Shown here: positions 31,708-55,328 of the stretch, piece after piece | Layout of the letters: each line of letters opens with the position of its first letter | Position numbering within the stretch: position 1 is the first letter of the stretch | Notes under the pieces: model-generated | The model's database searches: none | What the model was told of the DNA's origin: nothing | Seen by the model: only the letters and a program-made list of their open reading frames with translations | Made by a program: the position numbers and the translations under genes | Source: Microbacterium sp. | GTDB lineage: Bacteria > Actinomycetota > Actinomycetes > Actinomycetales > Microbacteriaceae | Reading direction: 5' to 3' | DNA length: 64,000 nt | Assembly (NCBI GenBank): GCA_017306415.1 | Contig: JAFKIL010000005.1 | Location: 175,500 to 239,499 of the forward strand

Positions 31708-31796
31708 GGAGACGTCGCATAGTCAGGCCTAGTGCACCACCCTGCTAAGGTGGAGACCCCTCACGGGGTCCGAGGGTTCAAATCCCTCCGTCTCCG
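31708..31796 (+). tRNA. tRNA-Ser (anticodon GCU), integration site of the island
   Basis: The acceptor stem pairs GGAGACG (31,708-31,714) with CGTCTCC (31,789-31,795). The anticodon stem CACC/GGTG encloses a loop with GCT. The T arm is GAGGGTTCAAATCCCTC, and a long variable arm is present. An integrase gene of the tyrosine family ends 40 bp beyond its 3' end, so the tRNA 3' segment is the probable attL. I found no second copy of that segment in the window. Confidence 0.95.
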
Positions 31797-31836
31797 CATC
31801 AAGTCCCCAGGTAGATCGAGTTTTTTTCGCATCGAC

Positions 31837-32967: not shown

Positions 32968-33218
32968 GTTGCGATGCCCGCGAGACGCTCGATGTCGATG
33001 CGGCGGTAAACACGTCGATGTTCGGTGAGCGCGATCGGCTCGATCGGCGCATGGCCTGCGAGAGCAAGGGTGCGAAGGGTAGTTCGATGGATGCCGAGGA
33101 GAGCGGCGGCTTCGGCTTCGGAGTAGAAGAGGCAGTCGAGCGTGACGTGATCGGACGGCCACTCATGCGGCGTTCGATGCGCTGGTTCCCACGTCGAGGA
33201 GTATTCTTGCGCGACCAT
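32964..33218 (-). CDS. Small helix-turn-helix protein, excisionase-like
   Basis: This 84-residue protein contains a MerR/AlpA-type helix-turn-helix: FYSEAEAAALLGIHRTTLRTLALAGHAPIEPIALTEHRRVYRRIDIERLAG. This is the form of excisionases and small regulators of integrative elements. It lies immediately upstream of the integrase with a four-base overlap (ATGA), so the two are co-translated. It likely directs excision or represses the integrase. The ATG at 33,218 was chosen because the conserved domain begins just after it; the frame extends upstream without further support. Confidence 0.75.
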   Translation of the reverse strand: MVAQEYSSTWEPAHRTPHEWPSDHVTLDCLFYSEAEAAALLGIHRTTLRTLALAGHAPIEPIALTEHRRVYRRIDIERLAGIAT

Positions 33219-35782: not shown

Positions 35783-36778
35783 TCATCGTCCGAGTTCGCG
35801 TTGCTGCGATGGAACGTCGATTGTTGGGGCCGCCACATCCGGACGAGCGCGTTCGGCTTCCACGCGTCGGAGCGCGAGCATCTGGCGCGCCAAACGATCT
35901 TCCAGTAGGGGTCTGGCCTTCGAATCAAAAGGAAGTGTCAGCGTTGGAACTACCGATTGAAGAGCTAGCTCGTGGAGCGTCACGAGCAGGTTCTTCAGGT
36001 TGGGCGTCACTCCGGAGGAAATTGCGTAGTCGGTCGTCGAGCGAAGCTCCGAGAGCCACTGCATCGCCGTAGAGGAGGACATCGCTTCCGATCGCGACCG
36101 GTCGAGGGACGTCGTCGAACCCTGCAGTGTCCCGGTCTCCAGCGAATCGAAAACGTGTCGACCTTCATGGTCGACGACTGTCAGTCGGCTACCCTTCGAG
36201 TCGGTCTCGAGTCGCTCGACGATCGCACGGGTGCCCTCCCACCCTGCGTCGTGCCGCGCAAGTGATGGAGGAACAGATGGGCGGCGACTCGAAACTCGGA
36301 GTAGATGTTGAGAGGCGATTGATAGGAGGCTTGCCGGCCTCGGCGTGGCAGCGACGAAAACGTGAGTCGAGAAGCCTGCCCGTCGAAAGACGTCCAATAT
36401 AGGTAAGACGATCTGGGGGGAGTCAAGATTGCCCTCGAGAAGGACGGATCGCTTCGACGATCGCGCGTGGGTGATCGCTCTCTGAAGCCAATGGGCTGCC
36501 GCCTCGGCGAGGATCTCATCCGCTTGCTCTGGACGTGACCTCGAAAGCTCTGGGTAGCTCGGGTGGAACGGCCGTAGATCGTCCGCGCGGAGGGTCACTG
36601 CATCTGCGTGAGCAGTGAGCGCGAGTCCGGTTGCCCTCGCCTGGTCGGCACCGGACTGACCAATCATCAGTGCAAGCGTGGGATCATCGGTCGATTGATC
36701 GGCGCCGAAGATTATCGGGTGGATCTCGTCTTGGAAGATCTCGGCTAGCCGCTCAGTCGACACCCGCGGGTCGCTCAC
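35783..36778 (-). CDS. Zeta-toxin-family protein with degenerate P-loop
   Basis: This 331-residue protein aligns by pattern to zeta toxins (UDP-GlcNAc kinase family). It has ALMIGQSGADQARATG at residues 37-51 in the Walker A position, then the ADDLRPFHPSYPEL segment that in zeta toxins follows the catalytic Asp, and LLEGNLDSPQIVLP. In canonical zeta the loop is GQPGAGKT, whereas here the Lys and preceding Gly are Gln46 and Asp45. Binding of ATP is therefore doubtful or altered. The upstream gene on the same strand overlaps by four bases (GTGA) and is the probable antitoxin. Cell-wall precursor poisoning is the known role of active members. Confidence 0.7.
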   Translation of the reverse strand: MSDPRVSTERLAEIFQDEIHPIIFGADQSTDDPTLALMIGQSGADQARATGLALTAHADAVTLRADDLRPFHPSYPELSRSRPEQADEILAEAAAHWLQRAITHARSSKRSVLLEGNLDSPQIVLPILDVFRRAGFSTHVFVAATPRPASLLSIASQHLLRVSSRRPSVPPSLARHDAGWEGTRAIVERLETDSKGSRLTVVDHEGRHVFDSLETGTLQGSTTSLDRSRSEAMSSSTAMQWLSELRSTTDYAISSGVTPNLKNLLVTLHELALQSVVPTLTLPFDSKARPLLEDRLARQMLALRRVEAERARPDVAAPTIDVPSQQRELGR

Positions 36779-39480: not shown

Positions 39481-40806
39481 ATGCCGAACGAGCTACAGCC
39501 TGGGGTGCGGCGAACTGGCGACTTCTTCGATTCCTACCCTGACACGCCTGAGGTGAAGGTCACGCTGGAGAGGTCCGATTCGGGCATTGGCGTGACTGTG
39601 GGTTGGTCGAGCCCAGATGTTCCTTACGCGCATTGGTTTCTGCGCGGCGGCGGATTCATCACCGGCACCGAACCGAAGGACCCGAAGCCAGTTCCACGTC
39701 GCGTCGTGTTTCACGACTCTCACGGTGCAGTGCTCCTGATTCGCTGCTGGGCGCGCGGGTACCACGCCAACGCTCTTGGCCCGGGAAGTGGGACGCTTTG
39801 GGCCAAGGCGGCGATCATGGGGGTCCAAGCGGACATCGAATTCGACCGTCCTCAGGGATTGCAGTCGGAGGTGTCCGGCCTACGTGAATGGCTAGGCGTC
39901 ACCTCGTGGGACGAGGACTATGACCGCCGCGGCCCGCTTGGAGTGACTCTGCGGTCTGTGGTCGTGACGCAGATCGAGGTCGGCACGTTCAGTGGGATGG
40001 AGCTCACACTCTGGCCAACCTGGCAGGTTGTTCCCGAGGAGGGCCGAGATCGACGCGTGCTACACGATCTTGTGCGTTGTATCACCAGGAGTGCGGATCC
40101 GCTGGACTGGGACGCTCACATGAACCTTCACCGCGCAATTCGGGATCTGCTCGTCCTGTCGAGGTGGCGCGAGGAGTCGTGCGTGCCCGTATACGCCTTG
40201 CGCGCCGACGATCCTCTCACAACGATGGACGGCAAGGTTCACGGCGACCAGTGGCGCGAAGTGGTCGTCCAGGACGACGAGCGCACACCGCCTCCGACCG
40301 GCTGGCACGGTCACCTCATCGCCTACCCAGATCTGGGAGTTGGTGGCCTCGGCCGCTGGATTGCGCTTCGCGAGAAGTTCGCGCGCGCTCTTGATCCCGT
40401 TATCTCGAGCATCGGCCTACGTAACACCACGCCCCACACTCGCCTTGCCCACACCGGGCCGGGATTGGAGGGCCTGGGTTTCCTTCTGCTGCTCCGAGAT
40501 GGCCTTCCCGAGAAGGCTGCCGGGAATGCAACCCTGAAGGCCCGGTTCGCCCGGATCCTGGCCGACGTCGGCGACTGTCTTCCGTTCGACGGTGAAGAGT
40601 GGGCTGCACGCACGATCGAAACCTACAACGGACTCAAGCACGCGAATCGAGCCAAGCCCGACGACATCGACGTCATGCATGCCTGGGCCGAGAGTGTGAT
40701 GGTGACGCGAGCGTGGGTCGCTCTCGAACTCGGCGTCAGCCCAGATCTCGTCAAGTCGCGTCTCGCGGATGATCGCCAGCCGCGACGCTTTCAGCGCATC
40801 GTTTAG
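39481..40806 (+). CDS. ApeA-like HEPN-domain defence protein
   Basis: This 441-residue protein has a long N-terminal beta-rich domain that matches the ApeA N-terminal type (TGDFFDSYPDTPEVKVTLER...GGFITG...RVVFHDSHGAVLLIRC...). A C-terminal HEPN domain carries ETYNGLKHANR, where Asn383 and His387 take the place of the RNase active site (usually R-N-x-x-x-H). LEGLGFLLLLRDGLPE lies upstream as the helix that pairs with it. ApeA proteins abort phage infection by tRNA cleavage. Start: ATG after GGAGG with five-base spacing. It heads a run of HEPN genes. Confidence 0.7.
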   Translation: MPNELQPGVRRTGDFFDSYPDTPEVKVTLERSDSGIGVTVGWSSPDVPYAHWFLRGGGFITGTEPKDPKPVPRRVVFHDSHGAVLLIRCWARGYHANALGPGSGTLWAKAAIMGVQADIEFDRPQGLQSEVSGLREWLGVTSWDEDYDRRGPLGVTLRSVVVTQIEVGTFSGMELTLWPTWQVVPEEGRDRRVLHDLVRCITRSADPLDWDAHMNLHRAIRDLLVLSRWREESCVPVYALRADDPLTTMDGKVHGDQWREVVVQDDERTPPPTGWHGHLIAYPDLGVGGLGRWIALREKFARALDPVISSIGLRNTTPHTRLAHTGPGLEGLGFLLLLRDGLPEKAAGNATLKARFARILADVGDCLPFDGEEWAARTIETYNGLKHANRAKPDDIDVMHAWAESVMVTRAWVALELGVSPDLVKSRLADDRQPRRFQRIV

Positions 40807-41232
40807 CTCGACGAGCTGCGGCGGTGAGGACGCGATTTCCGGCGCCATGTCACCGGCCTCCGGCTCGCCGGGCCGCGACGACCCCTGTCTGGGCCTCCAC
40901 CGAGTCGATCCCTAATCGCGCAAAGAGCGTTCGGCCATCCCTATACGGGCAGTGCGCGCGGCAGGGCCCCCGCTGGTCGCCAAGTCGATTCGTCGAGAGT
41001 AGGAGGCTTGACCGACTGCGCGCCGCGCCGAGTGCTGTACGGAGGCATCCGCGATCATCGACTCCGTGACCGAGTCGAACCAGACGTTGTTCACCGCCCA
41101 TCCCTCCGGAGGGGAGTCCACCCTCATCCAGTACAACCAACACATGATGAGCGAGCGCCTTGTCGCGATCGTCCACTGGACGGTCGACAGGGGCCGGCGA
41201 TCTCCGCCGGTCCCACCGAGTACGGTAGCGCC
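40807..41232. other. 426-bp gap with no confident gene
   Basis: Between the ApeA-like gene and the next HEPN gene I see only short, low-quality open frames on both strands. A -10-like TACGGT at 41,221-41,226 serves the gene at 41,233. An apparent 66-residue frame at 41,066-41,266 overlaps that start and is not supported. No repeat or palindrome stands out. Confidence 0.5.
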
Positions 41233-41970
41233 ATGGCTGAGATTGGCAGGCCCTGCGACTTTGTAGAAGGTGCCGCTTGTCCTTTGCCTGCCGCAGAAGA
41301 CCGCATTGACGAGGCCTCCCATTTCGTCTTGCAGCTCCAGACGAACTATCACGATCCCCGTGCATTCAGGTTCAATCTCAACGCGCTGCTCGCCGCCGTG
41401 GCGTCAACACGAGCTCTGCTGCAGATGGAGATGCAGAAGCACGGTCTCGTCAAAGAATGGAAGGTTGCGCGCGAGCCATTCTGGGGCGACCCAGTCCTGA
41501 CAGCCTTCCATCGGAGCAGAAACGTCACTCTTCATCAGGAAGCGATCTACGACGGAAGTCGGATCGATGTTGGCCTGTATCGCGGGCGCCGCATGAAGCT
41601 GTCCCTCCAACAAGAACTGCGAGCGGATCGCACGAGCGCTGAGATCTTGGCTCACTCAATCCCTCAACTCGAGAAGGTCTTTCTGGACCCGACTCATTCG
41701 GCTCTAGGAGAGCAAGGAGGACTGGAGCGACGCTACTTCATACGTGAGCTCAGTGCCGACGAGGACGCTCTCACCGTGAGTCGCAAGGGTCTAATCCGTT
41801 TGATCCACATGATCGCCACCGCGCACGTCGTCGTGGGCGTGTTGCCGGCAGAGTTCCTCGGCGACCACGCTGAGGACGATCAAGAGTTCGCTGTCCCGCC
41901 GAAGGCAATCACCGTTCTCTTGGAGTCTGACGTGGACCCCTCGCTGCCCGGCCAGTGGGGTTGGGAGTAG
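41233..41970 (+). CDS. HEPN-domain protein with intact RNase motif
   Basis: This 245-residue protein has an N-terminal four-helix HEPN domain. The FRFNLNALLAAVASTRALLQMEMQKHG helix leads to FHRSRNVTLHQEA at 93-104, which gives the catalytic R-x4-H motif (Arg96-Asn97-Val-Thr-Leu-His101). A C-terminal region of about 120 residues is mixed alpha/beta and unassigned. HEPN proteins of this form are metal-independent RNases of toxin or abortive-infection systems. The ATG is six bases after TACGGT, so it is probably leaderless. It belongs to the cluster of HEPN genes here. Confidence 0.7.
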   Translation: MAEIGRPCDFVEGAACPLPAAEDRIDEASHFVLQLQTNYHDPRAFRFNLNALLAAVASTRALLQMEMQKHGLVKEWKVAREPFWGDPVLTAFHRSRNVTLHQEAIYDGSRIDVGLYRGRRMKLSLQQELRADRTSAEILAHSIPQLEKVFLDPTHSALGEQGGLERRYFIRELSADEDALTVSRKGLIRLIHMIATAHVVVGVLPAEFLGDHAEDDQEFAVPPKAITVLLESDVDPSLPGQWGWE

Positions 41971-42057
41971 GCCTGCCGATCCCTCAACGTGCCATGGCCC
42001 AGTGGCCGTGTCCGGTTCTCGAAATAGTGTGGAACGCGAAGAGCGGAGGCAATCTTG

Positions 42058-44022
42058 GTGCAGCCGGAAGGGTCCGGCGAGCGACGGCTCAAGTTTTACG
42101 GCCCAAATGACTACGCAACCTTTTGGCAGGCAGAGAACGCCGTCCGGATCTTGCGAGATCACGACAATGCTGAGGCTCTGTCCGACGCGACCCATGCCAT
42201 CGAACTTCACAACGCCCGCCAGTTCGTCTCGGCTCGATTCATCCCAGCGTCCCTATCCGAGGATGAAATCGCCGATCTGGACGTGACAGGTGATCTAGTT
42301 CGAAGCGTGGTCGCTCGATTCTTCACCACGATTGACGAAACCAACATCGAGGAGCGCCTGCGGGAAGTCCCATTCGAATACCACGCGGACCTCCTCTCGC
42401 TTCTCGGCAACAACCGAGCGTTCGAGCGCATCAACGCCCCGGCCATGTTCGCGGCGCTGGAAGCGAATGGCGTCACGCTTGGCGAGATGCTAGCCAACAA
42501 AAAGCTCGTCACCGCATACGACCGAGAGGTTCGGGACGCCATCCTCATCGATGTCCGGGCGGCAGAGCACGTCATCCGCCATCATTTTTCGCGCGACACC
42601 AAAGGATCCATCTACCTGCCAAAGTCATTCAGCGCCGCTGATTCACGAGACGCTCTCCGTCGCTACGTGGAGGATCCGAGCGCCAACTTCAACTATGTCG
42701 CGCTCATCGCAACGGCCAACTCTGATAGTTCCACCGGTGTCGACGCGCGGCTGAAGCTCGCTGCGCAGCGGCGCAGCACGAAGGAAACCAAGGAGTTCTT
42801 CGCCAACAACGCCGGCATGAAATCCGGGTGCGAAGTAGCCATCGCGGATGAACAGGAGGAGCCGGTTGTCGAGACGCTCGACGGGATGGTGGTCAGCTAC
42901 ACGTATGGTCGACAGTGGCTGGACGCGACTACAGACGAGCCCAGCGTCCTCAACAACTTTCAATTCCTCTTTGAGTTCGCGAACCGCAGCGGCCTCCTGA
43001 CTCTGCCCTCGTTCACCTCGGATCTTTCCGTGTTTGAGCGATTCCTCACCACAAAGGGCCGCACCGACTATCACGTCGGCGTGGCCCATCGCGTTCGAGA
43101 GATGAGTTCCACGCTCCAGACACAACTGATGCGTTTCTTCTTGTCTCAGAAGGGGATCGAGCTAGAGGACGTGATCGCCTGGTTCTTCGACAAGTACCTG
43201 GCCACAGAGTTCGGCGCAGCGGGCTTTTCCTTCACGCCGACCGCGAACGGATCAAGCTACCTCGAAAAGATCCGGCATCTATTCGCGGAGATGGAAAGCA
43301 TCCTCCGCCAGTTCACCTTCTTTGCGGACGACGGCGAGATCGACCGCGACCTGCTCGCTTTGTCCTCGGACTCGATGCGCTTCAACCAAATCCCGAGCCG
43401 CCTCAGAGGGAAGTATCTGTACCCCACCGACAGTCCCGAGATCGTCGGCATCATGCACCATCTCCTGTCTGACCAGTCCTCGCTGAACTACATCAGCGAA
43501 GAGCTGCGCGGAGACAACGCCGTCGAGCTTCTTGCTCGCAACGAAGTCCGTTACGAGGACTTCGAAGACTTGCAGCGTCCGCTCGTCGACCAACTCATCG
43601 AACTCGGCGTGCTGACGAACGACAAGGGGCAGATCAGGTTGACCAGCATCGCCCACCTGAGGATCCTGGTCTCACTCCATGCCTCAGAGGTGGTGAGCTA
43701 CTTCCACCTCACTGCGTCGGAGAGGACCCTCGCCGACGAGATGGTGACCCGGGGTTGGCTGCGGCGAGGATCGACGCTTCTCACTGAGTCTGAAGCAAGC
43801 TACTTCAACTATCTACTCAACAACGTCGAGTTCAGCAACGGCCCCGCGCTGCGGAACAAGTACCAGCATGGTTCGCAAGCCGACGTAGAAGACAACGATG
43901 CCCACTTCGCGGTGTACTTGGTCGTGTTGAAGCTCATCATCGCGCTTGTCATCAAGATCAATGACGACTTCTGCTTGCGGGACCTGGAGGATCGAGACGG
44001 TGGTTCTGCTGCGCGTCGCTAG
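42058..44022 (+). CDS. Large protein with C-terminal HEPN-like motif
   Basis: This 654-residue protein is unassigned over most of its length. It is a mixed helical/beta protein, with LRDHDNAEALSDATHAIELHNARQFVSARFI at the start and helical repeats through the middle. The C-terminal segment FSNGPALRNKYQHGSQADVEDNDAHFAVYLVVLKLIIALVIK carries R599-N-K-Y-Q-H604, an R-x4-H HEPN pattern of the DUF4209 kind. It starts at the GTG at 42,058 (GCGGAGG eight bases upstream) or the TTG at 42,055. The gene is lower in GC than the backbone. It follows the HEPN gene after 87 bases and may be in the same unit. It probably is an abortive-infection protein; no other family is recognised. Confidence 0.5.
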   Translation: MQPEGSGERRLKFYGPNDYATFWQAENAVRILRDHDNAEALSDATHAIELHNARQFVSARFIPASLSEDEIADLDVTGDLVRSVVARFFTTIDETNIEERLREVPFEYHADLLSLLGNNRAFERINAPAMFAALEANGVTLGEMLANKKLVTAYDREVRDAILIDVRAAEHVIRHHFSRDTKGSIYLPKSFSAADSRDALRRYVEDPSANFNYVALIATANSDSSTGVDARLKLAAQRRSTKETKEFFANNAGMKSGCEVAIADEQEEPVVETLDGMVVSYTYGRQWLDATTDEPSVLNNFQFLFEFANRSGLLTLPSFTSDLSVFERFLTTKGRTDYHVGVAHRVREMSSTLQTQLMRFFLSQKGIELEDVIAWFFDKYLATEFGAAGFSFTPTANGSSYLEKIRHLFAEMESILRQFTFFADDGEIDRDLLALSSDSMRFNQIPSRLRGKYLYPTDSPEIVGIMHHLLSDQSSLNYISEELRGDNAVELLARNEVRYEDFEDLQRPLVDQLIELGVLTNDKGQIRLTSIAHLRILVSLHASEVVSYFHLTASERTLADEMVTRGWLRRGSTLLTESEASYFNYLLNNVEFSNGPALRNKYQHGSQADVEDNDAHFAVYLVVLKLIIALVIKINDDFCLRDLEDRDGGSAARR

Positions 44023-44574
44023 CCTTGCCTTGCACGCCTCCCCATCCGTGCGGTGCACGTGCGAACAGTTGTGCGAGCGGCTGCCGTTGACGAGACTCTG
44101 TAGAAGACACCTAGCGCGCTCACGACGCCGCGTCCCATAGTCACTGCTGAATGCATGACGGGCATGCGAATCGAGGGCAATCGTGCATGGACCGAGCGAG
44201 GACCTTCGCCAGTTCGTCGCAGCGGAGGCCTCGGCCTTCGCGGTCGCGACCGAAGACGCGCTGCAGACGAAACGCCTGAAGATTTCGCGCTTGAGCTTCC
44301 AGCGGTTCGCCTTGCCCTCCCTGACCAGGACGGAATACGAGTTGGCGCGCCTGCCATTGCCGCTACTCACACGTTCGCGCCGGGCCTCGTGTAAGAACCG
44401 GCGGACGATAACTCGTCACAAGCACAAGCACAAGCACAAGCACAAGCACAAGCACAAGCACAAGCACAAGCACCAGCGCCTTCGGTGTCTCGAGCGTATT
44501 CCCCGACGATCTGCTCCACGCAGCCCGGTTCCTTCGGTGAGCGAAAGCCGGTCCACACCGGGCGATTTCGCGAG
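44023..44574. other. 552-bp gap with tandem repeat and decayed coding-like sequence
   Basis: There is no confident gene. The segment 44,180-44,385 has a coding-like third-base pattern on the plus strand, encoding about 68 residues ending in LTRSRRAS, but it runs into a hexanucleotide repeat. On the minus strand a frame through 44,367-44,609 turns the same repeat into an Ala-Cys run. It could be a decayed gene or a transcribed non-coding stretch. Confidence 0.4.
44417..44470. repeat. Microsatellite (CACAAG)9
   Basis: Nine perfect tandem copies of CACAAG occupy 44,417-44,470, followed by a degenerate tenth copy. Read on the plus strand they encode His-Lys repeats, and on the minus strand Ala-Cys repeats. 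Hexamer repeats of this length tend to change in copy number. Confidence 0.97.
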
Positions 44575-44892
44575 TCAGGCCACCTGGGTCCAGTGGCGGA
44601 CTTTGTCATCCCGCTCGACGAGGAACAGTTCGTCCTCGGGGTAATACACGGCGGTGTCGATGTCCGTGCCCGCGAAGCCCTCGATCGCCTCGAAGCTCTG
44701 CCAGCGCGACACTGTCAGGATCTCGGTCCTGCCGTCGCCGAGGTCGCGTGCCAGCATCCACGCGTCGAGGTTCCCGGGCGTCTCCCGATACTCTTTCATT
44801 CCGGTGCGTTCGATGTAGGCGATGTACTCGTCTGCGTCGTCGCTCCGTACGACGCCCCGCCACATCCGGACGATGCTCTTCTGCGCTGTCAT
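44575..44892 (-). CDS. Antibiotic biosynthesis monooxygenase-like (ABM fold) protein
   Basis: This 105-residue protein has the dimeric alpha/beta ABM fold pattern: SIVRMWRGVVRSDDADEYIAYIERTGMKEYRETPGNLDAWMLARDLGDGRTEILTVSRWQSFEAIEGFAG. It includes WQSFEAIEGF and TVSRW, typical of such proteins. Members act in small-molecule oxidation or heme degradation, but many lack a known substrate. It starts at ATG 44,892 with CACAAT six bases upstream on this strand, suggesting a leaderless mRNA. It lies alone between the repeat and the recombinase. Confidence 0.7.
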   Translation of the reverse strand: MTAQKSIVRMWRGVVRSDDADEYIAYIERTGMKEYRETPGNLDAWMLARDLGDGRTEILTVSRWQSFEAIEGFAGTDIDTAVYYPEDELFLVERDDKVRHWTQVA

Positions 44893-45107
44893 GCCGTCAT
44901 TGTGCGCGGAAGAAGGACGCCAGCGCACCAAGATGCCCTGACACTTGTCGTAGACATTCCGCCAATGACACGCCCCCCGGACCGCCACGACGTTCACCGC
45001 GCACGCCAGCCGGTCCTTAAGCGGTCGCGGCGCGGCGCGCACCCGATAGCACCGCGGCCACTGGCCGCCGCGAGGGTCGCAGCGGGTGGCCGAGGCATTG
45101 CTCGGGG

Positions 45108-45716
45108 TCAGAAGATGTGGGCCTCGCAGGTGGCGAGGAACTCCACGCGGCGGCGCTGAAGTTCTCGGTACACGGTGGCGCGGGACACGCTGAACAACTC
45201 GGCGATCTCCGTCTGGGTGTACTCGCCGCGATCCTGGACGTCGAACAGGAGCTTCCGCTGCGTGGTGGACAGCTTGGGCTGTTTGCCTTTCAGGTGTCCT
45301 TTCGCGCGGGCGACCGCCATCCCCTCCTTCGTGCGCATGCTTATCAAGTCCCGCTCGAACTCGGCCACCATCGCGAGCACGTTGAACAGCAGCCGCCCCA
45401 CCGGGTCAGTAGGGTCGTACCTGCTGCCGCCCAGACTCAGCGCGACGCCTTTCGTCGTCAGCTCATCGGCGATGTCACGTGCATCCCGCGCCGAACGGGC
45501 GAGTCGATCAAGCTTCGTCACGACGAGAGTGTCGCCTTGTCGAACCGCCGCAAGTGCCTCGCGCAGTCCGGGCCTCGAACGGTTCGTACCGGTCAGCCCG
45601 TGATCTACATAGATGTTCGAATCGAGGACCGCGAGCCGCAACAACGCATCCCGCTGTGCTGTGAGGTCCTGATCGGCAGTGGAGACTCTGGCATAGCCAA
45701 TCTGTATTCCATTCAT
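45108..45716 (-). CDS. Serine recombinase (resolvase/invertase family)
   Basis: This 202-residue recombinase has Ser12 in IGYARVSTADQDLTAQRDAL as the nucleophile. VVTKLDRLARSARDARDI (the Arg-rich motif) and EFERDLISMRTKEGM follow, and a C-terminal helix-turn-helix is formed by YTQTEIAELFSVSRATVYRELQRR. It is the size of Tn3/Hin-type resolvases. The start ATG 45,716 is preferred over an upstream frame extension because the conserved domain begins there. It could resolve transposon dimers or invert a segment; no res or inverted-repeat sites were confidently found next to it. Confidence 0.88.
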   Translation of the reverse strand: MNGIQIGYARVSTADQDLTAQRDALLRLAVLDSNIYVDHGLTGTNRSRPGLREALAAVRQGDTLVVTKLDRLARSARDARDIADELTTKGVALSLGGSRYDPTDPVGRLLFNVLAMVAEFERDLISMRTKEGMAVARAKGHLKGKQPKLSTTQRKLLFDVQDRGEYTQTEIAELFSVSRATVYRELQRRRVEFLATCEAHIF

Positions 45717-45880
45717 GCCGCCGAGCGTGCCCTTCCCAGCCCGAAGATGCACCGGGGCAGATCGGTGATCGAACGAGGTGCGCACCACGCGCTGTCACGC
45801 TCGAAGTCGGCCAACACCTGCCATCCACACTTCCTGACGCCTCCTGACGGCAGGCTTCAGCTTGATGACGTAGCAACAGT

Positions 45881-45910
45881 TGTTGTCAAAGCCCGCGTTG
45901 CTGACTAGAT
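45881..45910 (+). promoter_or_regulatory. Candidate promoter of a short transcript
   Basis: TTGTTG (45,881-45,886) and TAGATT (45,905-45,910) are spaced by 18 bp, close to a sigma-70 pattern. The resulting RNA would start near 45,917 and run to the hairpin at 45,969. Confidence 0.35.
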
Positions 45911-45938
45911 TCGCTATCCCGAGGGAAGGACACAGACT

Positions 45939-45956
45939 ATGAGCCGCGATTACTGA
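45939..45956 (+). CDS. Five-codon open frame with strong ribosome site (possible leader peptide)
   Basis: ATG AGC CGC GAT TAC TGA (MSRDY) follows GAGGGAAGGA and ends 12 bases before the hairpin at 45,969. Such an arrangement is seen in attenuator leaders and translated small RNAs. The next gene starts 233 bases beyond the hairpin. The evidence is position only. Confidence 0.2.
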   Translation: MSRDY

Positions 45957-45968
45957 GATACCAAAGCG

Positions 45969-46004
45969 AGCCCCCGCGTGACTTTGTCGCACGGGGGCTT
46001 CGTT
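45969..46004 (+). terminator. Intrinsic terminator-like hairpin
   Basis: AGCCCCCGCGTG (45,969-45,980) pairs with CGCACGGGGGCT (45,988-45,999), a 12-bp near-perfect GC-rich stem with a short loop, followed by TCGTTATT. It can end the short transcript on the plus strand, and the resolvase-side DNA on the other. Confidence 0.7.
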
Positions 46005-46236
46005 ATTCTCTGGCCCAACAGTCCGGCGATCCTGATCGTGCGCTGGCCCGCACGCCACCACCCAAATCCGGGGAACGCCCGTTTGAGGATCCCCTTGCGG
46101 GCGGAGCGGATGCGGGTAAGTTGCGGGCGATTTGATGGCTTGCGATTGAGGCGAGTGGTGCGCACCGTCGTGCGGTTCGAGGGGCGGGACGAATCGAGCG
46201 GGAGCAGTCCGGCCGTGCACATGCAACAGTGACCTG

Positions 46237-47190
46237 ATGACGAACGAGCCCACACCCACATCGAACGTCTCTGCTGACCGGCCTCCGGTCAGCAGGTCGC
46301 GGCCAGAGGGCGCCACGGCCAACCGACGTGAGTCGGTCCAGCAACAAGCGGAAGCCGAGGCAGCGCTGCCGGATCTGTTGCGTCGGATCGACGATCTGTC
46401 CAACCTCGATGGACAGGGCTACTTCGAGCGCGAGCCGCTATCGACTCTCGCGATCGATGATGCGGCGATCTATCCGTTGCAGGTGTCGACAGCTCCTCAC
46501 TTCGCCATCCTGTCGTCTATCGACCACCTGAGGACTATCGCCGACATCGTTCGCAGCGGAACTCTGCCGATGACTGCTGTCGGCACGCTCTTGCGATCCG
46601 CTCTCGAGACCTCGTGTAGCGCAATCTACTTTCTCGCTCCGCAGAGCCGCGCAGACCGTGTACTGCGGGCCTTGCGGGACGAGTACTTTCAGATTGCTGA
46701 TGCGGAGAGGATGACCGCCGATTTCGATCCCGACCTGACCGTGAACCGAGAAGGCAAAGAGGAGATGCTCGGGCGTGCCTTGCAGGGGTTCTCCGCCGCT
46801 GGCAGCTGGGCAAATGTTACGGGGGGCCGGCCGGCAAGTATCACCACGAAGATTCAGTTCGCATGTCCAGTCGTCGAAGCCCACTCCCTCCGCGGGCGCG
46901 CAGAGTTCGCCGTTCGCGGTCTGTGGCGTGGGTTGAGCGGAATAACGCATGGAAGGCAGTACGCAGCCCTGGCGATCCTGGATCGCGAAGAACTCGGTTA
47001 TGACGAGTCGACCGGAGTCGTGCAGACACACATGACTTTCGGTGTCCGCAGCCTCGTGAGTTGCCTAGCTATCGTCCTTGATGTTGTGGAGACCGCGCAG
47101 AAGCTGTGGGGGCAACGGAGTCGGAGATTCACCAACTTGCCCGAGGACGCCGAGCTTGTGGCAGTCCTACGAGTCGATGGAAGGCTGTAG
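46237..47190 (+). CDS. DUF5677-like protein with HEPN-type helix pair
   Basis: This 317-residue protein has TAVGTLLRSALETSCSAIYFLAPQSRADRVLRALRDEYFQIA, the helix with conserved ALE that DUF5677 and related HEPN proteins share. Later LWRGLSGITHGRQYAALAIL holds an R-x6-H pattern (Arg231 to His238) in the active-site position. The C-terminal half is helical. Members are seen near phage-defence genes; biochemical roles are not established for this form. It is a plus-strand gene with AACAGT six bases before ATG, so leaderless, and converges with the next HEPN gene. Confidence 0.55.
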   Translation: MTNEPTPTSNVSADRPPVSRSRPEGATANRRESVQQQAEAEAALPDLLRRIDDLSNLDGQGYFEREPLSTLAIDDAAIYPLQVSTAPHFAILSSIDHLRTIADIVRSGTLPMTAVGTLLRSALETSCSAIYFLAPQSRADRVLRALRDEYFQIADAERMTADFDPDLTVNREGKEEMLGRALQGFSAAGSWANVTGGRPASITTKIQFACPVVEAHSLRGRAEFAVRGLWRGLSGITHGRQYAALAILDREELGYDESTGVVQTHMTFGVRSLVSCLAIVLDVVETAQKLWGQRSRRFTNLPEDAELVAVLRVDGRL

Positions 47191-47280
47191 CGATCCCGAT
47201 ACGTGCACTGCCCGCTGAACGGACTCGTGACCCCCCCCATGTCTGCGGCGGGTCGCGGGCGCTGCGGTCGGTTCCGGGGG

Positions 47281-48672
47281 TTAGTCGAACGTCGGCGTAT
47301 CCGTCACCGCGCAGGCGAGCACCGATGACGCGAGCATGATCGCGATGACCGCGTTGATGCGGTTGTACTGCCGGCGGGTCGCGGCGTGAGCCGTGACGTT
47401 GCGATGGAATGCGGTGCCGCGATGATCAACCCCGTACTTGCCGGTCATCGTCGCGTGAGCCGGCAGGAGCGAGAACGCGAAACGCCACCCGTGAGCGGCC
47501 AGCTTCTTCTTCTGATCCGCGTTCAGGATCGCGCCCTTGTCGAGGTTTAGCGTGGGCACCCGGAACTGCGAGATCACGGTGTCGAGGACGTTCGTAGCCA
47601 ACGCCTGCGCCGCCTCGGTGTGCCGATCGCGCACTGCTGCGATCGCGCGGCGGATCATGTCAGCGAGGAACAGTGCTCGACGTGACCCGAGTGCGCCGGC
47701 AACGGTCTCGCAGTCGTTGAGGATGCCACGCCAGTTGTTGCCGATCACACGGCGGCGGGCCGAACCGTCCGCAGCTTGCAGCAGCTTATCGATGACGGTC
47801 GCGCCGGGCACCCAGCCCAACGGAATGCCATCCGCGAGCACGGCATGGATCTGAGCTTGGATCGTATCGGGATCGGCAGCGACATCCAACCAGTTGGGGG
47901 TGACGCGCCGAAGCTTCAGTGAGTTAGCGAACCCGCTGAAGTCGAAGTCGAAGATGAACGGCGGCAGCTGGATAAGGGACCCCAGGTCCGGCAGTTTGAA
48001 CGCCGGCATCATCGACTCGATCTGGGCGTCCGTGAACAGGCCACGCATGGGCGAACCCACGCCGGTCAATCCAGGGAGGTTCGTGAAAAGTCCACGTATG
48101 GCGGAACCCGCGCCTGTGAGTCCGGGGACGTCTTTCATCCACGCCGTCGCGTTCATCGCCGACGTGAGCATTCGCGTGCTGGCCTCGTTCAGTCCGGGGG
48201 GGATGAGCGACTGCTGCGCAAGGCTTGTTGCCTTCATCCACTCCGCGTTGAACAGGCCTGTAGAGTAGGCCTGGCCGATGAGCTTGGACGCCGACTCGCC
48301 CAGCCGTAGCCCCTCAAAGTGCGGGGCGATCGCAGAGCTGATTGTCCCCATGAAGACGTCGGAGAAGATCCGGCCAGTGCGCAACGGCGGGAACACGCCC
48401 CTCAGGCCCGTCAGCTCCTTCGACCCAAGCGGCTGGCCGTCGGCGTCGAGGATCCTCACCACGGTCCGCGTCCTCTGCGGAGGATCGTCCGACTCGTCGT
48501 CGGCCGCCACATCACTCAGTTCGTCGGAGAAATCCCTTTGGGCGTCGTCCGCGGACTCGCCGGTCGGCTCGTCGAGGCTCGTCTCCGACTGGTCCGAGTC
48601 GCTCGAAGGGCGCGGTTCAGCAGGCACCTGACCAGCGAACCATACCCTTCCGATCCTGCCGCGTCGCGCCAC
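47281..48672 (-). CDS. Protein with C-terminal HEPN motif and internal duplication
   Basis: This 463-residue protein has an acidic disordered first 70 residues, a middle with two copies of a 15-residue unit (PGLTGAGSAIRGLFT / PGLTGVGSPMRGLFT) and a helical C-terminus. The C-terminus contains FHRNVTAHAATRRQYNRINAVIAIMLASSVL. The R424-N-V-T-A-H429 motif and the following QYNxINA helix match the abortive-infection HEPN families in which RN..H is followed by N-A...ML. The start codon is GTG at 48,672 or later; an internal GTG near residue 16 is possible. It converges with the DUF5677-like gene. Confidence 0.6.
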   Translation of the reverse strand: MARRGRIGRVWFAGQVPAEPRPSSDSDQSETSLDEPTGESADDAQRDFSDELSDVAADDESDDPPQRTRTVVRILDADGQPLGSKELTGLRGVFPPLRTGRIFSDVFMGTISSAIAPHFEGLRLGESASKLIGQAYSTGLFNAEWMKATSLAQQSLIPPGLNEASTRMLTSAMNATAWMKDVPGLTGAGSAIRGLFTNLPGLTGVGSPMRGLFTDAQIESMMPAFKLPDLGSLIQLPPFIFDFDFSGFANSLKLRRVTPNWLDVAADPDTIQAQIHAVLADGIPLGWVPGATVIDKLLQAADGSARRRVIGNNWRGILNDCETVAGALGSRRALFLADMIRRAIAAVRDRHTEAAQALATNVLDTVISQFRVPTLNLDKGAILNADQKKKLAAHGWRFAFSLLPAHATMTGKYGVDHRGTAFHRNVTAHAATRRQYNRINAVIAIMLASSVLACAVTDTPTFD

Positions 48673-49001: not shown

Positions 49002-50798
49002 TCAAAACAAGGTCTGATCTTCGTCCGGGTCAACGGCGCGGACTTCGCTCGGCTTGCTCAGCTTCTTCGCGCGCACCCTCGGCTTCGGGAACTTCGGCCC
49101 TGGCCCGTACTCCACGTTCCGTCCGCGTGCAGCATCCGACGTTCGGGTGAGCAGCTCGCGCGCCTGCAAGTCTGCGAGGAGGTCGCGTGCGCGCCAAACA
49201 TCGATATCGAACATGTTCTGCAGGGTCCGATTCGTCACTCGCCCGTACTCCGTGATGTGCGCCAGGACCTTCCGATCGATCTCATCAACGGTTCGTCGGT
49301 TGTAGCGAACCGCAGCGCCGAGCAGTCGCATCGCATCGCTTCGCAGCCTGTACTGTCGCCTGCGAGCGCGGCGGCTCTCTCGCGTTGGCTCGAGAATGCC
49401 GGGCGTATCTTGCGAGAGTCGCCTCAAGATCAGCTCTGTCTCGGGTTCTCCCTTTTGGAGCACCGGCGCCAGCTCGGCCGAGTTTATGGTTCGACGTTGG
49501 CACAGCGTGTAAAGGACAAGCATCGTGTCCGTGTCTTCGCGTTCCTCGACAGGGAGCTGAGCCACAAAGCGGGCGATCGAGGTTCTAGGCGCCCCGCCAG
49601 CGAGCACTACGCGCACGAAGTCTGGGCCGTCCTCGATGACGGGCACTTCCTGCCCTGACCGAATCATCTCCCTAAACATGCGGTCGACGCCTCGTCCGGT
49701 CTCCTCGGCAAGCCTGAGCATGCGAGCAGCTTTCGCGAGAGCTGGGTTCCGGGGTGTGGACGCGTGAGTGAGGATGTTCTGACTCGTCACGCTCCCGACC
49801 AGGCTTCCGGGGGAGATCGCAACGAACGCTGCTGGCGAGTGCTCGATGTTCACCCGCTGGTCGAGCCGGTAGTCGCGATGGATTAGCGCATTCGATAGCG
49901 CCTCGCGAACGGCTGCTTCGGGGAAGTCGGCTATCTCGATCTGTTGGCCGTTCGGAAGTGTGAGTGGTGTGACGTTGCGCCGCGCCCATATGAACGCCAT
50001 CGCCTGCTCGAAGGCGAGGATGAGTGGATATGGCAGGCGCTCGACCGCCACCGCTTCCCCGCCTGGAGTTTGCCTGTACTGGTAGATGATCTGAGAGTCG
50101 TGGTCGGGAGACTCGCAGAACAGCAACTCGCCCGCGCGGCTCAGCGCACCATCATCACCCAGGACTCCGAGCGCTCGCAGCAAGTCAGAGTCCGACAGAT
50201 CTGCAAGAAGCGATCGGTCATCGGGGATTCTTCGGAGCGCATCGCGAGCCGCCGCAATCGCGCGGGCGGAGACGTCCGACGCGGCTCGAGTGCTTGGCTG
50301 CGCCGACCAATCGATCGGGAGACGCTCCTCTCGCAGCCTTTGATGCGCGTGAGGAGTCAGGGGGACGCAGTCGGTTCCTACGCGGTGTGTCGCCCTGCCC
50401 TGACGGTCGGCGTGGATGTCAAAACTTTGGAAGACGTCGACGACGAGTAGCTGTACTGATTGGAAGGATCGAGTTCTGACTCCGACCATGAGCGGGGGTT
50501 CCGTGAGTTCGTGCACTCGTCGTTGCACGGTGGATGGGTCTAGATCGCAGCCGACGAAGGCATCATTGCCCGCTTTTGAGTTTGCGACGCCCATGACGAC
50601 CGTGCCGCCGGCTGAGTTGGCGAAGCACACCGCAGCTTCCACGATCGCGCGAATTGCATCGGGCTTGCTGTCTGGTTGCTGTTTGAAGTCCAGGAGGTCC
50701 GTTTCGAGTTCGTGCGCCGTCATGCCATTTCGTATGGACACGAGGGTCTCTTCTAGTTCCGCGTCGCTTACAGGCACGTCTGACATCATTGCTGACAT
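49002..50798 (-). CDS. ATP-binding protein with AlbA/Schlafen N-domain and HATPase_c_4-type C-domain
   Basis: This protein of about 598 residues has an N-terminal AlbA_2 (Schlafen) domain: LLDFKQQPDSKPDAIRAIVEAAVCFANSAGGTVVMGVANS, with the GTVVMGV strand. A C-terminal histidine-kinase-like ATPase domain contains FPEAAVREALSNALIHRDYRLDQRVNIEH and ISPGSLVGSVTSQNILTHASTPRNPALAKAARML...ETGRGVDRM, then a winged helix. Proteins of this form are linked to phage defence or transcriptional control and bind tRNA or DNA. I chose the ATG at 50,798; ATGs at 50,789, 50,786 and 50,858 are alternatives. It is divergent from the TIR gene. Confidence 0.8.
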   Translation of the reverse strand: MSAMMSDVPVSDAELEETLVSIRNGMTAHELETDLLDFKQQPDSKPDAIRAIVEAAVCFANSAGGTVVMGVANSKAGNDAFVGCDLDPSTVQRRVHELTEPPLMVGVRTRSFQSVQLLVVDVFQSFDIHADRQGRATHRVGTDCVPLTPHAHQRLREERLPIDWSAQPSTRAASDVSARAIAAARDALRRIPDDRSLLADLSDSDLLRALGVLGDDGALSRAGELLFCESPDHDSQIIYQYRQTPGGEAVAVERLPYPLILAFEQAMAFIWARRNVTPLTLPNGQQIEIADFPEAAVREALSNALIHRDYRLDQRVNIEHSPAAFVAISPGSLVGSVTSQNILTHASTPRNPALAKAARMLRLAEETGRGVDRMFREMIRSGQEVPVIEDGPDFVRVVLAGGAPRTSIARFVAQLPVEEREDTDTMLVLYTLCQRRTINSAELAPVLQKGEPETELILRRLSQDTPGILEPTRESRRARRRQYRLRSDAMRLLGAAVRYNRRTVDEIDRKVLAHITEYGRVTNRTLQNMFDIDVWRARDLLADLQARELLTRTSDAARGRNVEYGPGPKFPKPRVRAKKLSKPSEVRAVDPDEDQTLF

Positions 50799-51113
50799 TT
50801 GGCGTGAACTGCAAGTGACAGGGTTTCGCCAAATCTGATCAAACTCATCCGCAAGCAAGCTTCAAGGGGTACGCATCGCTCGCGTCGTTGCGCTTCTTGG
50901 AGTGGACCGGCCTTAAACAGCGCCTGGTGGTGGAGCCGGGATTCCGGTTACTGGTGCCAGCGATGCCGCTCGCGAGCCGGTCGTTGAGCGGACTCGATTC
51001 GGCCGTCTCGCGGAGCGGCCAACATGGGAACCTCAAACGGGATCGCTAGCGGGAAGGGATGTCGGAGGGTGCGCCTATTCTGAGTGTCCGTACGAGGGGA
51101 GGGCAAGTTCAAG

Positions 51114-51911
51114 ATGGCCGGACTGAGTAGATCTCAGATTGAGGCGAGGATTCGCGCTGCGCAGCGCGAGGCGGAGCGAAAGATCAAAGCTGAACTCGAC
51201 CGAGTCAATCGCGAGAACAAGCGACGCGTGGACGATTACAACCGTAAGGTCGACCAGCACAACCGCCAAGTCCTTCAAGCTCAGCAGCGCCGCGTCGATG
51301 CATACAACGCCGAAGTCGCGCGCGTGAATGCACACAACCAGCGCGTGAACACCCACAACGAACAGACGAACGCGCGCAATCGGGCCACGATCTCCGAACT
51401 GAATCGCCACCTGCGATCGGCGGCTTCCGGACCGCGATACACCCCTGCCGAGCAAGATCTAGCCGACCGCGTTCAGCAGCGGGCAGCGCAACACCCCGAA
51501 CGCGATCACGATGCGTTCCTGAGCTATGCGCGAATCGACGGCAGCGAGGTTGGGGTCGCGCTTCGCGCTGAGCTGGAACTCCTGGGTGCTTCCGTGTGGT
51601 TCGACGAGGTGGCGATTATCCCGGGCAAGAGTCAGGCCCTCCAGATGGACAAGGGACTGCGGTCGGCCCGATGCGGGATTGCTCTGCTCACGCCGGCATA
51701 CCTGACGGGTCGTTTCTGGACCGAGCGCGAGCTCGGAGCTCTCCTGCACAAGGAGACCCTGATCCCCGTACTCCACAACGTCACCTTCGAGCAGGTCGCC
51801 GAGTACAGCGGCATCCTCCCGGATCTCGCCGGCTTCGAGACTGCCCGCGACAGTGTGCAGGACATCGCCGCCAAGATCGCAGCAGCAATTCTCCCGACAA
51901 GCACCACCTGA
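51114..51911 (+). CDS. TIR-domain protein with N-terminal coiled coil
   Basis: This 265-residue protein has a long coiled coil (residues 5-100) with Asn-rich heptads such as DYNRKVDQHNRQVLQAQQRRVDAYNAEVARVNAHNQRVN. A TIR domain follows from about residue 131: DHDAFLSYARIDGSEVG, VWFDE (residues 161-165), and WTERELGALL with Glu206 in the position of the catalytic Glu of NAD-cleaving TIRs. Enzymatic TIR effectors deplete NAD+ and stop phage growth. The coiled coil may oligomerise or sense the phage. GGGAGGG lies ten bases before the ATG. A TATTCT box lies upstream. Confidence 0.82.
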   Translation: MAGLSRSQIEARIRAAQREAERKIKAELDRVNRENKRRVDDYNRKVDQHNRQVLQAQQRRVDAYNAEVARVNAHNQRVNTHNEQTNARNRATISELNRHLRSAASGPRYTPAEQDLADRVQQRAAQHPERDHDAFLSYARIDGSEVGVALRAELELLGASVWFDEVAIIPGKSQALQMDKGLRSARCGIALLTPAYLTGRFWTERELGALLHKETLIPVLHNVTFEQVAEYSGILPDLAGFETARDSVQDIAAKIAAAILPTSTT

Positions 51912-52148
51912 CCGGCGTAGGTCGTGGGCGACCGCATGCGGGTCGCTCCGCGGGCAGCCTTCAAAGCGACGCGAGTGCGATCCTCATCACCTCCGCTCAT
52001 GCGCGAATATCCAGCCCGCACCACTGCTCGACCGGCGCCCGTCAACTGCGACGCGATCGGCATCCCAACGACGCGAAAACTGCAATGCACGCAGGCACTT
52101 TATGTGGAACTGCTCGCGAGTTAGACATGATTGGCGTACTCTGGGGGT

Positions 52149-55100
52149 GTGCGCGGGGGCCTTGAGCGGTGGAAGCGGGGTGTCGAATCGCAGGGGGTTC
52201 GGCAAGCGATCGCGTACGCGCTCAAGGGGACGTGCGACTCGCACCTGAGGTCCGTGACCGGAGTTGACGCCCTCGCCGATTACAGCGATATCGCGGGCCA
52301 GGAGGTCGCCCGCTTCATGGTGACCGATGGTGAGATCACGACCGACGTTCTGAACGAGGCGCAACTTCGGCGGTGGGTCGACGGCCACGAGCCCGAATCG
52401 GATGCCGCCCGTGGGCGGGAGCTGCGCTCGCCGCAGGCGGATCTGATCCTGGATGGCACAATCAACGCGCCGAAGTCGTTCAGCGTCGCTGCCTTGATCA
52501 ACGACGATCTGGCCGTCGAGTTCGAGGCGCTGCAAGACCGCCTTCGTGATCGCATCATGGTGACGTGGCAGCGGGAGCTGAACGCCCGTCGCGGTGCCGG
52601 CGGCAAGATCCGTGAAGCTCTCTCGCGGGTCGAGGTCGTGGAGTTGCAGCATCGCCGCTCACGTGCGCTCGATCCGCACATCCACCGTCACCTGTGGCTG
52701 AACGTGAATGTGCTCGGGTGGGACGGTCGGTGGTCGAACATCGACTCCCGGGTGGCGATGAAGCTCCACACGGTCGTGAACGCGGAGGGCGAGCTCGCCG
52801 CCCGCACCGACCCTGCATGGGTCGCAGCGCTCGCCCGCAACGGGTTCACCATCGGGGATGACGGCGAGATCGCAGAGCTCGCATGCGCGGTTCGTCCGTT
52901 GTCGCGTCGGTCGAACCAGATCGAGGCGAACAGGGCGCGTCTGATCGCGCAGTGGCAGGAGGATCATTCCGGGCAACACCCAGACCGTGACGTACTGACT
53001 CACATCGACCGGCAGGCGTGGGCCCTCCAACGCCCAAACAAACCGGGAACGCTTGACGAAGGCGAGTGGCAAGCGCTCGTGCGTGGAGAACTCGAGGCGA
53101 TCGATCCCTCCCTCCTGTGTGCGCGGGGGGCGGTTGTGCCCCGCAGCCAGAGCGTCGATTCCCTTGATCGCGATCTGCTCGCGGCGATGGCGATCGTTGA
53201 CGCGGACCACCGGTCGGCCGCGTGCGGGGGTCGGTTCAGCATGTTCGACGTCCGCGCCGGGGCGATGCGCGCGATCGCCGCATCGGGCGTGACCGCCGAC
53301 CGCGCAGAGCTGGACGAGCCGATCCGGGATGTCGTCGACCGTGCTCTCGCGTTCACCGTTGACCTTCTGGAGGGTGAGGGGAGTCGTCCCGATCACATCA
53401 AGGGGTTCATGGCTGCGGATACCGCGAAGTTGAAAGCGGAGCTCGCCGTGCGCTTCGACGCTCTCACCATCGCCGGCGCACCGGCCAGCGAAGAGGCGAT
53501 CGCGCTGGCGGCGGCGGTCCTGCCTGAGGGAATCGCGATGGACACGGCGCAGCGGGATGCCGCGGCGGCGATCGCGGGCACGGACCGTCTGGTGTCGGTG
53601 ACCGGGCCGGCGGGCACCGGGAAGACGACGATGCTGAAGACCGCGCGCGCTGCGCTGCAGGCGGCCGGGCGGCGGATGGTCATCGTCGCTCCGACGAAGA
53701 AGGGGGCATCCGTCGCGGGACGCGAGACCGGAGCGGCAGCATCCAGCCTGCACGCGCTGCTCGCCGACCACGGATGGCGCTGGGGACACGACGCGGCTGG
53801 CGATGAGGTCTGGACTCGTCTCGCGATCGGCGAAGCCGACCCGGCGACGGGAGTCGTCTATGAGGGCCCGCGCAGGTTTGCGCTTGGGGCGGGGGATCGG
53901 ATCGTGGTGGATGAGGCGGGCATGGTCGATCTGCACACCGCGAACGCTCTCGCCGTACTTGCTGGGGAGACCGGTGTCGGCCTCGCGATGGTCGGCGACC
54001 ATCTGCAGGCGATGCCGGTGGGGCATTCCGGTGCGATGGCGTGCCTGACGCGCCGGGCAACGGCTGTGGTGGAACTGACCTCCGTCCACCGGTTCCGCGA
54101 TCCCGAATACGCGGCCCTGTCGCTCCGGCTTCGCGAACCAGGCTCCCGCGCGGACGCCCTCGACGTCGCCGCCGAGCTCGACCAGCGAGGCCTGGTGCGC
54201 AGGGTCGCGGACGCGACGGACGCCCGCGACGCCATGGTGGACGCGTTCTTCGAGTGGAGCGCGCGGCACAAGAGGGTGGCGCTGGTGACGGGAACCAACG
54301 AGGAAGCCGACGCCATCAACGAGGCCATCCAGCAACGCCGGGTCGAGGCGGGGCAGCTGTCCCTGCATCGGATCGCGGTCGGTCAGGGAGAGCAGCGGCT
54401 TTTGGAAGGCGACGTCGTGCAGACCCGCCGCAACGACCGACACACAGGCGTAGAGAACCGAGCCCTATGGATCATCCGCCACATCACCGGCGACGAGATC
54501 GAACTCGAAAGCGTCACCGCCGAGCGGGACGTGCGACGGGTCTCGCATGACTACGCCGGCGAGCACATGCACCTCGCCTACGCGTCGACGGTGCACGGAA
54601 TCCAAGGTGAGACCACTGACGCATCCGTCGTCGGCCCAGGCGTCGACGCGTCCGGACTCTACGTCGGCATGACCCGCGGCCGCGTACACAACGAGGTCAT
54701 CACTATCGCCCGCACCAGTGCCGCAGCGCGCGAGCAGATCGCCGACGCGATGGCGCGCGGCATCCCCGAAGTGTCCATCGATGAAAGCATCCGCGCCGCC
54801 CGCACCGAACTCGGACGCGCCGCCCGCGATCCTGATGCGAGCGCACCGAACGTGACGCCTCGGTGGAACGACCGCATGCGGCGTCCGTTCGGAGCTGAGC
54901 TCCGCCTCGACCGGATCCTGGCCGACACGATGAACGAACTGGATCGAGCACGACACGCGAACACGTCTGACCGTGCGTTTATCTCGAGAGCCGGTGCGGC
55001 GCTACTCCTGCTCGCGACGACGATCGCTTCCCACGACGCCCGCGCACACGCGCGCCACGGCGCGAGCGACGCGGACACCGCTCCGGTCTCGCAGCAGCAG

Positions 55101-55328
55101 CGACTTGCGCGAGAGCTCGAGCAGGCTAACAAGCGACAGCCAGCGCTGGCGCACAACATCGTCGCGCTCGAGGACCGTGTCGAGGCACTGGAGCACGAGC
55201 GTCGAATGCGGGACGGCCTTCCCGCGCCATTGCAGGCTGCGGAAGAGCGAGTTCGCTCCCGGGCTGCATCCATTGGTTCGACCGACGCGGAGAGTAGTGT
55301 GCCGACATGTGCGCACGGTTCGCGATGA
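52149..55328 (+). CDS. MobF-type relaxase with RecD-like helicase domain
   Basis: This 1,059-residue TrwC/TraI-like protein nicks and unwinds DNA for transfer. The relaxase part (residues 1-300) has the metal-binding HIHRH triad at 177-181 (DPHIHRHLWLN). The helicase part has Walker A GPAGTGKTT near residue 486, IVVDEAGMVDL (Walker B) and VHGIQGETTDASVVG. The N-terminal Tyr pair of typical MobF proteins is absent: only Tyr23 and Tyr45 occur in the first 100 residues. The GTG at 52,149 is six bases after TACTCT and gives MRGG, the typical start. The C-terminus is helical and may be shortened. No type IV secretion genes are nearby. Confidence 0.85.
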   Translation: MRGGLERWKRGVESQGVRQAIAYALKGTCDSHLRSVTGVDALADYSDIAGQEVARFMVTDGEITTDVLNEAQLRRWVDGHEPESDAARGRELRSPQADLILDGTINAPKSFSVAALINDDLAVEFEALQDRLRDRIMVTWQRELNARRGAGGKIREALSRVEVVELQHRRSRALDPHIHRHLWLNVNVLGWDGRWSNIDSRVAMKLHTVVNAEGELAARTDPAWVAALARNGFTIGDDGEIAELACAVRPLSRRSNQIEANRARLIAQWQEDHSGQHPDRDVLTHIDRQAWALQRPNKPGTLDEGEWQALVRGELEAIDPSLLCARGAVVPRSQSVDSLDRDLLAAMAIVDADHRSAACGGRFSMFDVRAGAMRAIAASGVTADRAELDEPIRDVVDRALAFTVDLLEGEGSRPDHIKGFMAADTAKLKAELAVRFDALTIAGAPASEEAIALAAAVLPEGIAMDTAQRDAAAAIAGTDRLVSVTGPAGTGKTTMLKTARAALQAAGRRMVIVAPTKKGASVAGRETGAAASSLHALLADHGWRWGHDAAGDEVWTRLAIGEADPATGVVYEGPRRFALGAGDRIVVDEAGMVDLHTANALAVLAGETGVGLAMVGDHLQAMPVGHSGAMACLTRRATAVVELTSVHRFRDPEYAALSLRLREPGSRADALDVAAELDQRGLVRRVADATDARDAMVDAFFEWSARHKRVALVTGTNEEADAINEAIQQRRVEAGQLSLHRIAVGQGEQRLLEGDVVQTRRNDRHTGVENRALWIIRHITGDEIELESVTAERDVRRVSHDYAGEHMHLAYASTVHGIQGETTDASVVGPGVDASGLYVGMTRGRVHNEVITIARTSAAAREQIADAMARGIPEVSIDESIRAARTELGRAARDPDASAPNVTPRWNDRMRRPFGAELRLDRILADTMNELDRARHANTSDRAFISRAGAALLLLATTIASHDARAHARHGASDADTAPVSQQQRLARELEQANKRQPALAHNIVALEDRVEALEHERRMRDGLPAPLQAAEERVRSRAASIGSTDAESSVPTCAHGSR

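Follow-up and report, generated by a model that had tools for sequence, protein, structure and literature searches.

Among the described systems closest to the locus treated here, Tha is a tail-activated HEPN protein of Staphylococcus aureus prophages that is restrained by its small partner Ith, and its authors, in a passage of their paper, call abortive-infection (Abi)-like immunity possible (PMC11087260). ApeA combines the ApeA_NTD1 and HEPN_Apea domains, the HEPN-MNT toxin (7ae6) is a small two-gene toxin-antitoxin system, and human Roquin (RC3H1/RC3H2) has a HEPN-ROQ-HEPN arrangement. PDC-S56 is listed in PADLOC-DB 2.0.0 as a phage-defence candidate; part of the paper on such candidates describes them as products of a guilt-by-embedding screen, most of which still await validation (PMC12988326), and our literature search found no paper naming PDC-S56. 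We analysed a stretch of 64,000 nucleotides from Microbacterium sp. (the window; GCA_017306415.1, contig JAFKIL010000005.1, positions 175,500 to 239,499), in which five open reading frames (ORFs) between 39481 and 48672, labelled P1 to P5, had been described in an earlier note as five candidate HEPN-motif proteins, each with the ribonuclease (RNase)-type motif, in one defence-type cluster. Sequence comparison partly supports that reading: HEPN signatures are conserved in P2 (few sequences), P3 and P5, proteins without detectable mutual similarity. We consider it probable that an integrative element has gathered independent, self-contained defence genes here, with P2, P3 and P5 each a single-protein abortive-infection effector.

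All five ORFs are indeed open at the positions claimed, with P3 starting at TTG 42055, 3 bases before the start given in the earlier note. The RNase-type motif that was said to occur in all five is present as RNx3H in P2, P3 and P5, whereas the arginine is variable in P4 and missing in P1, so that a set of five HEPN RNases is not supported. As a chance background we used 283 greedily chosen ORFs of at least 150 residues, 32 of them from the window outside 39-49 kb and the rest from 24 fetched loci; this set includes some HEPN relatives and some surely spurious frames. Since Rx4-6H occurs in 241 of these 283 ORFs, this pattern alone is weak evidence. P2, P3 and P5 stand out, and P4 does not, because RNx3H is rare (14/283; 0/32 in the window part) and Rx6H is common (183/283; 26/32). 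The Nx3H string on which the assignment of P1 had been based was found in 54 of the 283. Conservation of the motif in homologues, which the earlier note had proposed as a test, was seen for P3 and P5 and failed for P4 and P1, while few sequences were available for P2.

P3 had been regarded as unassigned over most of its length, and this no longer applies, as its PADLOC match to PDC-S56 is nearly full-length (Table 1). Its R-x4-6-H, with a polar residue after the arginine, is conserved: in an alignment of 45 rows, each of the three positions is occupied in 44, of which all keep H605 and 43 keep R600 and N601, the sole exception being an out-of-register ORF piece of locus L036. All three residues are invariant in the 35 rows of the domain alignment. 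P3 was modelled with AlphaFold2, with a predicted local distance difference test (pLDDT) score of 89.6. Winged helices of MarR, ArsR and methyltransferase proteins align to residues 105-217 of the P3 domain model, and the HEPN-MNT toxin 7ae6 is the best structural row for the C-terminal model; P3 differs from this toxin as a large, single protein with an insert. A Foldseek search with the P3 domain gave nothing significant. The match list of whole P3 was filled mostly by its N-terminal helices, and no further HEPN family stood among the matches listed, which is not an exclusion. The prediction is of a winged helix of the nucleic-acid-binding type inside the proposed HEPN domain of P3, as in human Roquin. 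We claim no homology between the two; the likeness lies in the predicted topology, and P3 keeps R-N-x3-H and a long N-terminal helical region, whereas Roquin has RING and zinc-finger parts. What this analysis adds to PDC-S56 is an invariant site of the HEPN type and a predicted split HEPN fold that encloses a winged helix.

A scan of genome contigs placed P3 relatives at 40 loci, in actinobacteria, Bacteroidota, Shewanella, Alteromonas, a Campylobacterota metagenome-assembled genome and Leuconostoc, and five plasmid records from Pseudoalteromonas and Enterococcus carry them as well; within the order, P3 is rare (2 of 198 genomes, its own included). Neighbours were surveyed, with no control set, for 85 of 126 called proteins at 21 P3 loci. 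Humibacillus contributes one helicase of the Hachiman HamB type (1020 bits), and among the first 25 of 230 families the restriction, methylation and specificity subunits of type I systems have two members each. A small serine resolvase lies at most about 35 bases before the P3 relatives of Enterococcus (L026, 5632-7620) and Robiginitalea (L041, 7983-9944), in an operon-like arrangement. As a fixed partner of P3 it was rejected, and we treat it as a mobility gene, because only 4 of 42 P3 loci have one.

P5 also has a conserved R-x4-6-H, and its C-terminal 200 residues are conserved while the N-terminal half varies. Of 20 rows, 19 have a residue at position 424, all of them arginine, and 17 have one at position 429, histidine in 16; the one mismatch is a short ORF piece of L085, and the weak relatives L008 and L009 as well as L090 are gapped at the histidine column. 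When these three and two L085 pieces are left out (the 15-row alignment A5), both residues are invariant across 14 relatives with 17-39% identity to P5. No family was found above cut-off in Pfam or NCBIfam, where matches were sub-threshold only, and none at all in PADLOC or PHROGs. Counting its own genome, relatives occur in 7 of the 198 genomes scanned for the order and in 8 of the 296 scanned for the class, and 11 plasmids from Streptomyces, Nocardia and Dietzia carry them as well; in IMG/VR, one contig was retrieved by a three-row alignment and none by P5 alone. For P2 the sequences are few, with R96 kept in all five rows and H101 in four; of its two distant relatives, which are open frames 486 and 489 residues long, one has lysine for the histidine. 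It matches no family in Pfam, NCBIfam or PADLOC and has only a sub-threshold match in PHROGs. Counting its own genome, P2 occurs in 2 of the 198 genomes scanned for the order and in 4 of the 299 scanned for the family, and it is also present on one Paenarthrobacter plasmid. Around the relatives of P2 and P5 (7 loci, 48 of 67 called proteins, first 25 of 36 families, no control set), PADLOC matches were single-member ones, among them SoFic, PD-Lambda-3_B, a methyltransferase of type II and a reverse transcriptase of the DRT type. Scans of viral contigs with P2, P3 and P4 gave no useful match, sequence searches of the PDB with alignments A3-A6 nothing meaningful, profile-profile comparisons no match, and PHROGs none beyond the sub-threshold one of P2.

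By alignment, P1 is an ApeA relative whose clade has tyrosine where the catalytic arginine stands. It shares both ApeA domains: ApeA_NTD1 scores 40.5 bits (Pfam cut-off 25.5), and HEPN_Apea 23.5 bits with the protein, just under the cut-off of 24.4, and 26 bits, above it, in a genomic search. A control search with HEPN_Apea across 14 well-known genomes gave no match. In a 15-row alignment, eight ApeA-type proteins have RNxxxH, while P1, L122, L124, L028 and L029 have TYNxxKH and L126 has VYVGNKH; L121 was not judgeable. P1 and its close relatives keep the asparagine and histidine, and the lysine before the histidine is also fixed. With the domain at cut-off level and Arg replaced by Tyr, P1 lacks a HEPN_Apea domain with R-x4-6-H, and it further differs from ApeA in having no PADLOC match. 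A second string, RNTTPH at residue 314, was rejected, being kept only in L124 and not in L122 or the plasmid relatives L028 and L029.

P4 was rejected as a HEPN RNase by motif, as R231 is kept in only 6 of 14 rows and Rx6H arises in 41% of 2000 shuffles of P4, leaving no conserved R-x4-6-H. All 14 rows keep W230, S234 and H238, and 13-14 of them keep R120, R141 and R144. Judged by this conservation, P4 represents a genuine family that is still uncharacterised and perhaps resembles HEPN proteins through a different basic residue. It occurs in 13 of 198 genomes of the order, its own included, and on 12 plasmids.

We then compared the island proteins with 89 other loci by blastp (1e-5), with flanks of mostly 1.5-10 kb, so that distant partners would be missed. 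At least one match was obtained at 81 of the 89 loci, about ten being the same place fetched twice, and at none were relatives of two of P1-P5 found together. P1-P5 thus behave as independent modules. Of the island's other genes, the serine resolvase and the TraA-like relaxase recurred as neighbours, and the TIR protein had a counterpart at a single locus (Enterococcus, L026). Of the two origins that the earlier note had offered, successive insertions into a hotspot fits this evidence, and one large multi-effector locus does not, as its components do not recur together.

That the genes are toxin-antitoxin modules serving the stability of the element, not defence, appears unlikely. HEPN toxins of such pairs are common, according to part of one survey (PMC3710099), and a weak zeta/PezT-like ORF is present in the island; on the other hand, P3 and P5 are large multi-part proteins, and no nucleotidyltransferase-like gene adjoins P2, P3 or P5 among ORFs of at least 150 residues inspected by eye, although a small antitoxin is possible. 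Less likely still is that P2 and P5 carry the RNxxxH string without a HEPN fold. Neither has a family or profile link, and P5 has no solved-structure link either, which would suit this explanation, whereas the invariance of the P5 arginine and histidine over such divergent relatives, and the polar residue (N or H) after the arginine, as HEPN motifs show it, argue against it. One multi-effector system, with HEPN proteins acting together, for example as heterodimeric RNases, is very improbable, since the common strand of P1, P2 and P3 and the gap of 84 bases between P2 and P3 are set against the lack of shared loci among the 89 compared with their short flanks, P2 relatives in G083 and Paenarthrobacter without an adjoining P3, the opposite strand of P5, and the P4 and P5 relatives of one genome (G029) lying about 150 kb apart.

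Table 1. Features of the island; positions are those of the window.
Feature	Position	Strand	Basis or remark
tRNA-Ser(GCT)	31708..31797	+	ARAGORN; left attachment site of island
Integrase-like ORF, adjoining the tRNA	31837..33162	-	ORF; tyrosine-recombinase-like, ending RHALRHYAAS..., judged by eye
zeta/PezT-like ORF	35783..36778	-	Weak NCBIfam PezT match, 19 bits (cut-off 470)
P1, ApeA_NTD1 + HEPN_Apea with Arg to Tyr	39481..40806	+	Pfam
P1 motif Y382-N-G-L-K-H387	40624..40641	+	Alignment; N383-x3-H387
P2, 245 aa, no known family	41233..41970	+	ATG inside longer TTG ORF from 41008
P2 motif R96-N-V-T-L-H101	41518..41535	+	Alignment and motif scan
P3, PDC-S56 family, 655 aa	42055..44022	+	PADLOC PDLC05039, 756 bits over residues 9-644
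P3 helices 343-436, proposed N-terminal half of split HEPN fold	43081..43362	+	Model and structural comparison
P3 predicted winged-helix insert, about residues 437-545	43363..43689	+	Structural alignment
P3 proposed C-terminal HEPN half with terminal helix 614-650	43690..44004	+	Model and structural comparison
P3 motif R600-N-K-Y-Q-H605	43852..43869	+	Alignments; helix 599-604 then loop in model
Serine resolvase	45108..45788	-	Pfam Resolvase, 142.7 bits
P4, 317 aa, no known family	46237..47190	+	No Pfam, NCBIfam or PADLOC family; HEPN motif unconserved
P4 conserved W230 ... S234-G-x-x-H238	46924..46950	+	Alignment
P5, 463 aa	47281..48672	-	N-terminal half variable, C-terminal domain conserved with R[NH]x3H
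P5 motif R424-N-V-T-A-H429	47386..47403	-	R and H invariant in 15/15 rows of A5
Schlafen/AlbA_2 + HATPase_c_4 protein	49002..50858	-	Pfam
TIR protein, PDC-S66/ThsB-like	51084..51911	+	Pfam; PADLOC PDC-S66 116.7 bits, ThsB-like 80.5 bits
TraA-like relaxase-helicase ORF	52131..55328	+	Similar to annotated 'putative TraA-like protein' of plasmid pTC1

The surroundings suggest that the stretch belongs to a mobile island, an integrative element inserted at tRNA-Ser(GCT). The G+C content falls from 0.69 to 0.62 directly after this tRNA, and the 60 bases of window 31739-31798, which are the 3' part of the tRNA, recur without a mismatch at G000:C12:131866-131925, where ARAGORN found no whole tRNA. This copy is a candidate right attachment site. 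The flank to its right had no match within the short flanks compared, and the contig of the window stops at the window's end. In three congeners, the 58-base tail of their own tRNA-Ser(GCT) is repeated about 48 kb (G083, 54/58 identical), 26 kb (G797, 58/58) and 24 kb (G766, 56/58) away; the repeats lack the 5' part, no whole tRNA is present at these places, and therefore the site has been used repeatedly. The tRNA appears as an integration hotspot of the genus, with elements of about 24-48 kb in these congeners. The defence-type surroundings described earlier were borne out for the TIR, the AlbA/Schlafen and the ApeA-related proteins, while the zeta-like gene has only the weak PezT match. The N-terminal part of the TIR protein is long, charged and coiled-coil-like. 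Between P3 and the resolvase, a tandem array of nine perfect CACAAG hexamers (44417-44470) is probably non-coding, although one frame is open as HKHKHK.

The single-protein effectors that we favour draw on the motifs, their conservation, the families, the separate occurrence, the defence neighbours, the island edge and the P3 fold prediction, and from these we infer RNase activity, a trigger and growth arrest for P2, P3 and P5. In each, a sensing part would keep the HEPN RNase inactive until a phage trigger frees it, and the predicted Arg/His site would then cleave RNA in a metal-independent way and thereby halt growth of the cell. Tha follows the same proposed logic of a phage-triggered HEPN effector, as far as sections of that paper describe it (PMC11087260), and the likeness proposed is one of logic. 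For P3, the likeliest sensing input would be nucleic acid bound by the predicted winged helix between the two HEPN halves, and a second one could come from the long helical region at the N terminus. P1 would be of the ApeA type, with its active site altered, and P4 unrelated, without a supported HEPN motif. We tentatively raise a further, rather doubtful possibility, that P3/PDC-S56 is a bacterial immune RNase of Roquin topology, whose nested winged helix recognises a structured RNA or DNA (from phage) and thereby directly activates the surrounding, catalytically intact nuclease.

The loose list of five HEPN toxins is thus replaced by separate, testable parts, and a tRNA hotspot dense in defence genes should not be taken for a single system. 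P5 is described as a new HEPN-motif family, and the ApeA clade with an altered catalytic residue offers a natural test of the role of the HEPN arginine. For PDC-S56, an unvalidated defence candidate, an active site and a domain plan are now predicted and a trigger is hypothesised; if the reading as an immune RNase of Roquin topology is true, P3/PDC-S56 would be a one-protein, nucleic-acid-sensing abortive-infection enzyme spread across several phyla.

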